A stretch of 64,000 nucleotides of DNA, from NCBI RefSeq assembly GCF_014859355.1, contig NZ_JACUUJ010000001.1, forward strand, positions 124,001 to 188,000. Direction: 5' to 3'. Position numbers and translations under genes: made by a program. This stretch comes from Yoonia sp. Its GTDB lineage: Bacteria; Pseudomonadota; Alphaproteobacteria; Rhodobacterales; Rhodobacteraceae. The notes under the pieces were generated by a model, which saw only the letters and a list, made by a program, of their open reading frames with translations, was not told the origin of the DNA and did not search any database. Below are positions 8,188 through 59,402 of the stretch, in pieces; position 1 is the first letter of the stretch; each line of letters begins with the position of its first letter.

Positions 8188-8521
8188 AGGCCATGGCCCC
8201 TTACGTCGTTTTGGTTGCCCGGACTATATAACAAGCCGGGGCCGAATACAGTAGCGCCCCCCTTGGGCGTTATCCCAAAGCAGCGCGCCCCCGTGGGCGC
8301 GACGCGCTGACGGAGGGCGATCCCCTGCTATCGGGGACCGGACGGCAGATGCAATCCGGGTGTTGGTTTGCACTTATGCCTGTCCGGTGGCCGAGTCAAC
8401 AACCCAGGATTCGGGCCGTATTATGGGGCTAATATTGTATCCTGTTCACCTATCTTTCTTGCCTTGACGCACGAAATGTTGCATTTGTGCGCTTAGTGTT
8501 TGCCATCGCACAGGAGTGACA
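8188..8521. other. 334-nt gap between divergent ffh and the LysR gene
   Basis: No convincing gene. It holds several GC-rich inverted repeats near 8255-8340 (for example CGCCCCCTTGGGCG and CCCCTGCTATCGGGG) and the promoters of two divergent genes. A TATATA sequence about 40 nt before ffh may be its -10 region. There is no GGAAGGAAGC-type SRP RNA loop. Confidence 0.5.
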
Positions 8522-37802: not shown

Positions 37803-37832
37803 GCAAAACGGGCGGGACGCAAGCCCGCCCGC
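37803..37832 (-). terminator. Terminator of the small heat-shock gene
   Basis: CGGGCGGG pairs with CCCGCCCG across a 7-nt loop (37809-37831); on the minus strand it is followed by TTTTG. It lies 20 nt after the heat-shock gene stop and faces the convergent secreted-protein gene. Confidence 0.65.
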
Positions 37833-37851: not shown

Positions 37852-38319
37852 TCAATTGACCGATTTTTGTTCCACAAGGTTCGCATTTGTGCGACCGGCA
37901 GAAGTAATCGCGATCCTGCGTGGCTTTAGCGCCTCTGGCACTTCACGCGTCAGGTCGATATGCAGCATGCCGTTTTCATGGCTGGCACCTGTCACACGCA
38001 CATGATCTGCCAGATGGAAGCGGCGTTCGAATGCGCGCGTTGCAATGCCGCGATGCAGATAGGTGCGGTTGCTGTCATCTTCGCCCCTGCGCGCCGTGAC
38101 ATGAAGCGACCGGTCCTTCACTTCGATTGAAAGGTCGTCATCGGAAAAACCTGCCACGGCAATCGAAATGCGCCAAGCATCATCGGCGGTCTTTTCGATA
38201 TTGTAAGGCGGATAAGTGTTCTGGCCAACATCATTGGCAAGTGCGCGATCCATCAGATCGGCAATCTGGTCGAAACCGACGGTGGCACGATATAGCGGTG
38301 TAAGGTCGAAATTACGCAT
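37852..38319 (-). CDS. Small heat-shock protein, Hsp20/IbpA family
   Basis: A 155-residue ATP-independent holdase chaperone. The alpha-crystallin domain spans about 38-135 (YNIEKTADDAWRISIAVAGF, NRTYLHRGIATRAFERRFHL, NGMLHIDLTREVPEA), and the C-terminal anchor PRRIAI carries the I-x-I-like motif. The upstream region shows both an RpoH-like promoter and a ROSE-like RNA thermometer covering the ribosome site (AAGGATGA), so it should be induced by heat at two levels. Confidence 0.95.
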   Translation of the reverse strand: MRNFDLTPLYRATVGFDQIADLMDRALANDVGQNTYPPYNIEKTADDAWRISIAVAGFSDDDLSIEVKDRSLHVTARRGEDDSNRTYLHRGIATRAFERRFHLADHVRVTGASHENGMLHIDLTREVPEALKPRRIAITSAGRTNANLVEQKSVN

Positions 38320-38410
38320 GTCTGGTCATCCTTCATCAAGCGATAACAGGTGTCATGCCTTCCCATCAGGGACAGGCCGTTTATGCGGAACCCATATGTG
38401 GCGTTCCTTG
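38320..38410 (-). ncRNA. ROSE-like RNA thermometer in the hsp20 leader
   Basis: On the minus strand the 5' leader folds into three successive hairpins: 38387-38407 (GGAAC...GTTCC plus CC/GG), 38357-38377 (GCCT, TCCC, loop TGA, GGGA, AGGC) and 38325-38347. In the last, GUUAUCGCUU pairs with AAGGAUGAC across a GAUG loop, with a single bulged G in the UCGCU segment opposite the Shine-Dalgarno AAGGA. The U(U/C)GCU motif with its bulged G facing the SD is the hallmark of ROSE elements of rhizobial heat-shock genes. Pairing was done by eye. Confidence 0.65.
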
Positions 38411-38416
38411 GAAACA

Positions 38417-38444
38417 GGTAGGTCAGGGTTTCGCGCGTTTCAAG
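38417..38444 (-). promoter_or_regulatory. RpoH (sigma-32)-like promoter of hsp20
   Basis: On the minus strand CTTGAAA (38444-38438) and CCTACC (38422-38417) are separated by 15 nt, close to sigma-32 spacing and to its CTTGAAA -35 consensus. A transcript would begin near 38410, just before the first leader hairpin. Confidence 0.6.
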
Positions 38445-38466
38445 ACCCTTGCGCGGACAGCGGCAG

Positions 38467-39276
38467 CTAGTCTGCGCTGATAAATTTCGCACCCGTGTCG
38501 TTGCGCTGGCCAATGCTGATCATGCGTTGCGGGCCGCCGGGGCGGGCTGGCCCCTGACTGGCAAAATGCGCCAAAAGTGCGGATAAAGGCCCTTCCAGTG
38601 ATGTGCCAAGCGCCACCTTTTGCCCATCGACCATCGCCATCGCGGACACGACAGAGGCGATCCGCGTTTGTCCGTCCCGAAGCGTGAAAACGGGCGATCC
38701 GCTGGACCCGTATTCCACATCGCAGGTCATGACGATGACGCCTGTCTGTCGGCCCAAGACGCTGCACACCTCTTGCAGGCTGGGTGCGTCTTCTCGACCG
38801 CGACCATAAGATACAACGCCCACCTTGTCGCCCGTCAGCGGGCGCGCGGCGATCAGATAGGGCCGGATGCGCGTCGTCCTGATCGGTCGGTCCAGCTCCA
38901 GCACGGCAATATCCATGGCCACCGATGCCGCGTCTGTTGCATCGCCATTGTGCTGGTATTGCGGGTGCGCAACAGCGCGGGATACGGCGCGCGTTGCCTC
39001 TGCGCGGCCATCGCGCAGACCGGCTTGAAATGCGAAACGATCCGGCGCGATCAAGCTGCCATTGGTATCAAATAAACAATGCGCTGCTGTCAGGATCAGC
39101 CGCTCACGGATCAGGGCCGCGGTGCAAAACCCCTTGCCTGCAATATCGAGCCGCCCCACGGCCTCCCAGCCTTGGCTGTCTTGCCGGGTTTGCAGGGTCA
39201 CCAAACCTGTTTCCTGCCCAAAGCTGGCCAGCGCAGATGCGCACCACACCATGACTGAAATGACCAGATAACGCAT
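38467..39276 (-). CDS. Secreted trypsin-like serine protease (S1 family)
   Basis: A 269-residue protease with signal peptide MRYLVISVMVWCASALA. The catalytic triad is intact: His in LTAAHCLF, Asp in MDIAVLELD and Ser in GSSGSPVF. Paired cysteines frame the His region and the VCSVLGRQ...MTCDVEYG region. It acts outside the cytoplasm on unknown proteins. AGGAG precedes the ATG chosen at 39276. It lies downstream of glcF with a 55-nt gap. Confidence 0.9.
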   Translation of the reverse strand: MRYLVISVMVWCASALASFGQETGLVTLQTRQDSQGWEAVGRLDIAGKGFCTAALIRERLILTAAHCLFDTNGSLIAPDRFAFQAGLRDGRAEATRAVSRAVAHPQYQHNGDATDAASVAMDIAVLELDRPIRTTRIRPYLIAARPLTGDKVGVVSYGRGREDAPSLQEVCSVLGRQTGVIVMTCDVEYGSSGSPVFTLRDGQTRIASVVSAMAMVDGQKVALGTSLEGPLSALLAHFASQGPARPGGPQRMISIGQRNDTGAKFISAD

Positions 39277-59093: not shown

Positions 59094-59402
59094 AGGCCGC
59101 AAGCAATGACCTGCGGTCTTTTTTCATTTCGTATCGGATTAATCCGGCGGGTAGGCGGCCGGAAGAGCCAGCCAGGGGGCAGCCCCCGACTCCTGTGCGA
59201 TGAGGCGCGGCATAACCGCACGCGCCCGGAAAGCCAAGACACCGTTCCTGCATCTGCTCCAATTATTCAAAAACAATGTTCTGGATGCGATGACATGTGT
59301 AAATTTGCCCATAAATCGGGCTAAATGCGACTGTCTTGAATATTTTGGCACTTGATGACAGCGCCTTTGCTGCGGTTTGGCTGTGCGGCCATGCCATTGG
59401 AT
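59094..59402. other. Gap between gabD and the SulP gene
   Basis: No gene seen. It contains the SulP promoter region and a GC-rich inverted stretch (GGGGGCAGCCCCC near 59176), then AT-rich sequence at 59255-59345. Confidence 0.45.

Follow-up and report, generated by a model that had tools for sequence, protein, structure and literature searches.

A probable ROSE-type RNA thermometer in the hsp20/ibpA leader of a Yoonia-group bacterium

The hsp20 locus and its promoter

The window (the whole stretch of DNA analysed here, 64,000 nucleotides) carries on its minus strand a gene for a small heat-shock protein of the Hsp20/IbpA type, the product of which is 48% identical to E. coli IbpA. It is preceded by a leader with three hairpins and by promoter-like elements. 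The features of the locus are the following (the unpaired G of each hairpin stands in square brackets):

37805-37830, minus strand: probable intrinsic terminator 3' of hsp20, GGGCGGG-loop-CCCGCCC-GTTTT (by eye)
37852-38319, minus strand: Hsp20/IbpA-like gene (hsp20/ibpA), 155 aa (PF00011, E 2.2e-18)
38319-38317, minus strand: start codon AUG of hsp20 (read from the sequence)
38318-38413, minus strand: whole element as matched by the covariance models R1 and R3
38325-38347, minus strand: hairpin 3, GUUAUC[G]CUU-GAUG-AAGGAUGAC, the presumed thermosensing hairpin, with the anti-Shine-Dalgarno motif UCGCU and an unpaired G at 38341 (RNAalifold)
38329-38333, minus strand: Shine-Dalgarno sequence AAGGA, paired within hairpin 3, 9 nt upstream of the AUG (sequence)
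38357-38377, minus strand: hairpin 2, GCCU[G]UCCC-UGAU-GGGAAGGC, unpaired G at 38373 (RNAalifold on A2)
38387-38407, minus strand: hairpin 1, core GGAAC[G]CC-ACAUAU-GGGUUCC, unpaired G at 38402 (RNAalifold on A2)
38416-38422, minus strand: -10-like element CCTACCT, after a 15-nt spacer at 38437-38423 (sequence; the family form is CCCANAT, with the spacing shared)
38438-38444, minus strand: -35-like element CTTGAAA of the RpoH type (sequence and conservation among orthologous leaders)

In hairpin 3, GUUAUCGCUU pairs with AAGGAUGAC across the GAUG loop and leaves one unpaired G opposite the Shine-Dalgarno (SD) sequence. The initial annotation had placed three hairpins here, the last with this loop and with the unpaired G facing the SD, and all of them are present in the sequence where it had put them; to its account we add that hairpins 1 and 2 contain an unpaired G as well. 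The leader resembles ROSE elements in several respects. Hsp20 lies directly downstream and the element ends at the start codon, that is, in the 5' UTR of a small heat-shock gene; the 3'-proximal hairpin contains a U(U/C)GCU anti-SD motif that pairs with the SD (UCGCU with AGGA); the base opposite the SD (G38341), which is unpaired or non-canonical, is a G in 100 of 100 model-aligned leaders; and three hairpins are packed into about 90 nt, ROSE elements having two to four hairpins in 60 to over 100 nt (PMC10474464).

The terminator candidate at 37805-37830 was absent from the list produced by a terminator-scanning program, and the sigma-70 and terminator scans returned nothing bearing on the hsp20 leader. 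Elsewhere in the window, two RNAs on the minus strand scored above their gathering scores, a sul1 RNA (RF03058) at 59138-59196 with 51.5 bits and an ffh RNA (RF01793) at 8284-8331 with 50.9 bits.

CTTGAAA and CCTACC with a 15-nt spacer, described in the initial annotation as an RpoH-type promoter, were read directly from the sequence in that form. Of the 195 orthologous leaders (described below), 190 have CTTGA within 190 nt, compared to an average of 22 in shuffled leaders, and CTTGAA was invariant across the 56 leaders from the genus. A -10 element matching the family form CCCANAT at five or more of six positions accompanied CTTGA in 167 of the 195 leaders (shuffled average 1.05), and the -35/-10 spacing was 15 nt in 142 of those 167 (shuffled average 0.05). 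The copy in the window, CCTACCT, is a weaker -10 that agrees with CCCANAT at 4/6 positions. The RpoH assignment is supported in that a -35 with TTG and a correctly spaced -10 are conserved upstream of the leader far above the level of shuffled leaders.

The genome itself contains one RpoH above the curated cut-off (G000:C72:9198-10010; 369.9 bits, cut-off 323.1). A second match to the RpoH model (G000:C94:78923-79729) scores 277.8 bits, below the cut-off, and may be a second RpoH or an RpoH paralog; a third (142.3 bits, 661-aa frame) is more probably a different sigma factor. We take the Rhodobacter tag RSP_1572 to be the hsp20 gene. This tag is listed under protein folding in the RpoHI regulon, and several of the TTG bases of the -35 matter to both R. 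sphaeroides RpoH factors (PMC3441632).

Conservation and covariation of the leader

A match to the protein at E 1e-30 was found in 56/56 genomes of the genus and in 146/149 genomes of the family. We read 195 orthologous leaders, 56 from the genus and 139 from other genera. Nine of the 149 family genomes gave no readable orthologous leader: three had no match, five of the 146 had a best match between 5.0e-36 and 7.4e-31 and were left out, and at one locus (L196) the leader lay off the contig end. The motif U[UC]GCU was present within 45 nt of the start codon in 194/195 orthologous leaders, the exception being L121. When the covariance model R1 was run on a second batch of leaders, 39 of 40 orthologous leaders were matched. 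The remaining one, L194 (G072), has AUCGCUC/GAGGGU, and its hairpins 1 and 2 look degraded by eye.

Paralog loci (L002, L198-L200) were kept separate from the orthologous leaders. The second hsp20 of the genome (L002, G000:C27, outside the window) has a short two-hairpin ROSE-like leader, as in Pseudomonas ibpA, with the hairpins GGUCGCC..GGGGCC and GGCAGUCGCUU..AAGGGCAUGUC. Among paralog leaders (L002, L198-L200, L336-L355), U[UC]GCU was found near the start in 24/24 and CTTGATC upstream in 22/24, a simple pattern of the first hairpin fitted 18/24, and R1 gave weak matches at best on the four on which it was run. In the locus around an hsp20 relative, an FMN riboswitch (RF00050) scored 113 bits (L055:359-497, G124).

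Covariation was counted on three alignments: A2, 45 leaders aligned by MAFFT without structure; A3, 100 family leaders aligned to R1, which matched all 100 sources, 11 of them belonging to the R1 training set and also being rows of A2; and A4, 26 loci from alphaproteobacteria outside the family. The alignments A3 and A4 were fitted to the structure of the model and are biased in its favour, unlike A2. From A2, RNAalifold predicted the three hairpins with their three unpaired G; the structure counted on A2 was drawn by hand from the window and differs from the RNAalifold structure by one pair at each end of hairpin 1. In A2, 95.6% of the cells pair and double changes occur in 14/26 pairs (8.2 ± 1.2 after shuffling), with a covariation score of 0.291, compared to 0.136 ± 0.008 for shuffles and to at most 0.134 for slid versions of the structure, a comparison in which a structure drawn from one row tends to win for that reason alone. 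Double changes rose to 21/26 pairs in A3 (covariation score 0.416, shuffles 0.172 ± 0.006) and were seen in 19/26 pairs in A4 (0.609, shuffles 0.243 ± 0.015). In each of A2, A3 and A4, the observed score was reached by 0/500 shuffles, which leave the relatedness among the leaders in place.

All three hairpins contributed. Double changes were found in 6/9 (A2) and 8/9 (A3) pairs of hairpin 1 and in 5/8 (A2) and 7/8 (A3) pairs of hairpin 2, and in the SD hairpin, hairpin 3, in 3/9 (A2), 6/9 (A3) and 5/9 (A4) pairs; in the lower part of hairpin 3, pairing in A3 is limited to 74% of the cells. Covariation of the SD-pairing helix in relatives, on which the initial annotation had staked its reading, was thus found in part: the outer and loop-side pairs covary, but the core pairs opposite AGGA change too little to be informative.

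Covariance models gave a similar picture. R1, whose training set includes the window sequence, scored the site at 81.6 bits. R3 was trained only on 26 loci outside the family, and these loci were collected with the family model R2, so that their selection is linked to the family but their sequence is not; R3 found the window site with 55.0 bits (E 1.8e-12 over 64 kb), the next match having E 3.1. R2 matched all three hairpins in the ibpA leader of E. coli K-12 (41.6 bits, E 4e-8 over 15,001 bases), which R3 scored at 34.6 bits, and gave one match in the own genome. The ROSE-like element proposed in the initial annotation is supported by covariation, by a model built from other families and by the match of three hairpins to the E. 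coli ibpA leader.

Model searches of many genomes (over 40) scored few candidates per genome, and their counts are lower bounds. R2 matched at least 193 of the 196 order genomes, including some on which it had been trained, with three genomes giving no match, and at least 72 of 289 genomes of the class at E 0.01 (at least 63 at E 0.001), 68 of the 72 lying outside the family. R3 matched at least 82 of 398 genomes of the phylum; eight of these were outside the class and one of the eight was inspected. Among the best matches, Hsp20 stood directly behind the element in 40/40 loci (L284-L323, 26 of them outside the family) and, in a further set of best matches, in 24/24 loci (L356-L379).

Heat opening and alternative roles of the leader

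We consider, with a probability of about 0.92, that the 5' leader of hsp20/ibpA holds an RNA thermometer of the ROSE type, with heat opening assigned to it by homology. In the proposed mechanism, heat would raise RpoH activity and transcription would begin just before hairpin 1, as judged from the position of the promoter. At growth temperature, hairpin 3 would pair the anti-SD UCGCU with AAGGA and block ribosome binding. The unpaired G opposite the SD would keep this hairpin weak, so that warming would open it and translation would depend on temperature, as homology with tested ROSE elements suggests. Hairpins 1 and 2, which are more stable, would stay folded and probably aid the folding of hairpin 3 or protect the mRNA. 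The outcome would be two layers of heat control, one on transcription and one on translation.

Hairpin 3 is predicted to be the weakest of the three, with a median MFE at 37 °C of -4.9 kcal/mol over 100 leaders versus -13.5 and -10.2 kcal/mol for the other hairpins. Nearest-neighbour folding of the window leader yielded no melting step: between 15 and 50 °C the MFE fold kept all three hairpins, and the predicted probability of a fully open AAGGA climbed only gradually, being 9.7e-6 at 20 °C and 3.2e-4 at 42 °C. When the unpaired G was removed in silico, this probability dropped to 1.9e-7 at 42 °C; a control with a scrambled anti-SD was nearly as closed through other pairings (7.7e-4 at 42 °C). 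In the MFE fold of the window leader, the start codon pairs with GCAU after hairpin 1.

In a tested ROSE-like element, the SD hairpin melts and the first hairpin is unaffected (PMC3669281). As far as their available text goes, the published studies give no uniform picture of what the unpaired G does by itself. In P. putida, deletion of the G opposite the SD slightly lowered the level at 25 °C and made induction higher, and shut-off was obtained only with U38C (PMC3669281); in P. stuartii oppF, deletion of the G lowered induction, and its combination with U43C abolished it (PMC11342760). A stabilised SD pairing (G deletion plus a U-to-C change) abolished the heat response of the tested ROSE-like RNAs (PMC3669281, PMC11342760).

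Could the hairpin resemble a ROSE element by chance? We reject this explanation and give it next to no weight. The bare motif of the last hairpin (U[UC]GCU pairing with AGG[AG], at least three outer pairs and ATG/GTG 5-12 nt downstream) is weak evidence by itself: it occurs once in the 64-kb window, compared to 0.28 times on average in 60 first-order Markov windows, and 14 of these 60 random windows had at least one. That the hairpin is beyond chance follows not from the bare motif but from its conservation in the leaders (194/195) and from the R3 match (E 1.8e-12), obtained with a model from other families. Nor does it seem at all probable that the RpoH promoter alone provides the heat control, with the hairpins serving mRNA stability or nothing. 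Such an arrangement would agree with the conservation of the promoter (190/195) and with folding software that predicts no sharp melting, but it is at odds with a conserved anti-SD with its unpaired G, with compensatory changes in hairpin 3 and with a homology to the E. coli ibpA leader that extends across all three hairpins.

The conserved bases of the upstream hairpins bear on a further explanation, in which the leader acts mainly in autorepression: Hsp20/IbpA would bind its own 5' UTR and repress until titrated by denatured protein, and heat melting would be secondary. In the model-aligned leaders, the unpaired G is kept in 99/100 cases in hairpin 1 (CG in the remaining row), in 90/100 in hairpin 2 (U in six, two letters in four) and in 100/100 in hairpin 3. 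In each hairpin it adjoins near-invariant pairs, [G]CC/GG in hairpin 1, [G]NCC/GGN in hairpin 2 and [G]CU/AG in hairpin 3, while the remaining parts of the stems drift and covary from Rhodobacteraceae to E. coli. This tendency of hairpins 1 and 2 to keep the unpaired G and the adjacent C-G pairs, which are superfluous for hiding the SD, would suit autorepression. E. coli IbpA represses its own translation via the ibpA 5' UTR and needs R93 to do so, and the two residues R93 and Y34 show good conservation among the IbpAs of alphaproteobacteria (PMC10474464). In the window Hsp20, R and Y stand at the aligned places. On the other hand, the available text of the same paper suggests a role in alphaproteobacteria and reports no test there (PMC10474464), autorepression is compatible with a thermometer, and the architecture of U[UC]GCU and SD is explained by a thermometer alone. 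We therefore regard autorepression as an unlikely main role and retain the ROSE-type thermometer as the preferred reading.

As the G of the two upstream hairpins can have no part in hiding the SD, these hairpins may be recognised, by IbpA in autorepression or in a tertiary packing through which hairpin 3 would open cooperatively. Parts of this pattern of unpaired G are already visible in the Rfam consensus structures, in hairpin 1 (RF00435, RF02523), in the equivalent of hairpin 2 (RF01832) and in the last hairpin (all three families). The Rhodobacteraceae form has hairpins 1 and 2 together, as does E. coli according to R2; ROSE and ROSE_3 keep hairpin 1 and the ROSE_2 model keeps hairpin 2. 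It is a tentative idea, and one we hold to be doubtful, that a single recognition unit, present in three copies, underlies the hairpins and that the three ROSE families of Rfam are pieces of one lineage running from alpha- to gammaproteobacteria. The conserved G of the upstream hairpins offers a handle on the role of these hairpins and on whether IbpA autorepression and heat opening share one RNA.

Relation to known ROSE elements

Within the 64-kb window, none of the Rfam models RF00435 (ROSE), RF01832 (ROSE_2) and RF02523 (ROSE_3) gave a match at its gathering score. In 38200-38600, RF00435 (gathering score 45) and RF02523 (gathering score 43) had no match at E up to 10, and RF01832 scored the site at 21.1 bits, below its gathering score of 65. 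Membership of the site in any of the three families, as Rfam now defines them by gathering score, was thus rejected. As a positive control, ROSE_2 scored the E. coli ibpA leader at 100.4 bits. In direct scans of 60 family loci (40 at gathering score and 20 by E-value) and of 20 loci from other families of alphaproteobacteria, all three models stayed below their cut-offs. Of the 20 family leaders scanned by E-value, 9 gave sub-threshold ROSE matches (22.8 to 30.9 bits); those of ROSE_3, in 3 of the 20, were sub-threshold only (25.3-28.8 bits, gathering score 43).

In the genome draws, RF00435 matched at least 1 of 149 family genomes and at least 8 of 289 class genomes, with one match over the cut-off in each draw. 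RF01832 matched at least 2 of 149 family genomes, both on the orthologous leader and neither over the cut-off, and 0 of 289 class genomes in a search that scored few candidates per genome. The only family genome of the draw with an RF00435 match over the cut-off, G156, carries it (L281:1501-1592) before a divergent Hsp20 (PF00011, E 2.7e-14), which tblastn with the two Hsp20 proteins of the own genome missed at 1e-5.

In alpha- and gammaproteobacteria, ROSE elements upstream of small heat-shock genes are well documented, with more than 40 cited (PMC4166951). In the same Roseobacter clade, and before the same type of gene, ibpA and hspD of Nautella sp. R11 have typical ROSE-like motifs; unlike the present analysis, the 2011 genome paper, in its available text, mentions them in one sentence without structure analysis (PMC3230580). 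Neither a structural nor a covariation analysis of the Rhodobacterales element turned up in the literature searched, which included few subscription papers. The short ROSE-like elements of Pseudomonas ibpA share the U(U/C)GCU anti-SD, the G opposite the SD, an SD hairpin at the 3' end and an unpaired AUG, but have two hairpins instead of three (PMC3669281).

The leader also shares parts with each of the Rfam families, for none of which a clan is shown. The first hairpin of ROSE_3, CGgGAU[G]CCGAAgUCGGGUCcCG, corresponds to hairpin 1, and ROSE_3 likewise ends in an anti-SD hairpin with C[G]CU; in contrast to the leader described here, it has two hairpins, without an equivalent of hairpin 2. The ROSE consensus (RF00435) has hairpin 1 with its unpaired G (gcc[G]CC/GGggC) and a last hairpin with UU[G]CUC/GAGGA, and likewise stands before Hsp20, but its middle hairpin is longer and the base of its last hairpin is extended; R2 also matched all nine of the loci tried that have RF00435 matches. 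R2 and R3 thus bridge at least RF00435 and RF01832, and a wider model of this kind, R2 or R3, would annotate the Rhodobacterales element. Its mechanism would be that of an ordinary regulator, yet one that Rfam leaves unnamed.

A close likeness is also seen to the gammaproteobacterial ROSE_2 (RF01832) of E. coli ibpA. According to R2, E. coli has three hairpins in the same order; hairpin 2, GCCUGUCC/GGAAGGC, has the unpaired G and hairpin 3 has UCGCU/AGGA, and there, too, the element precedes ibpA and has CTTGAAA upstream. The difference lies in the Rfam model, which spans only the equivalents of hairpins 2 and 3. The Yoonia leader is a clear member of a known family of bacterial RNA thermometers, of the E. 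coli ibpA kind, that Rfam misses.
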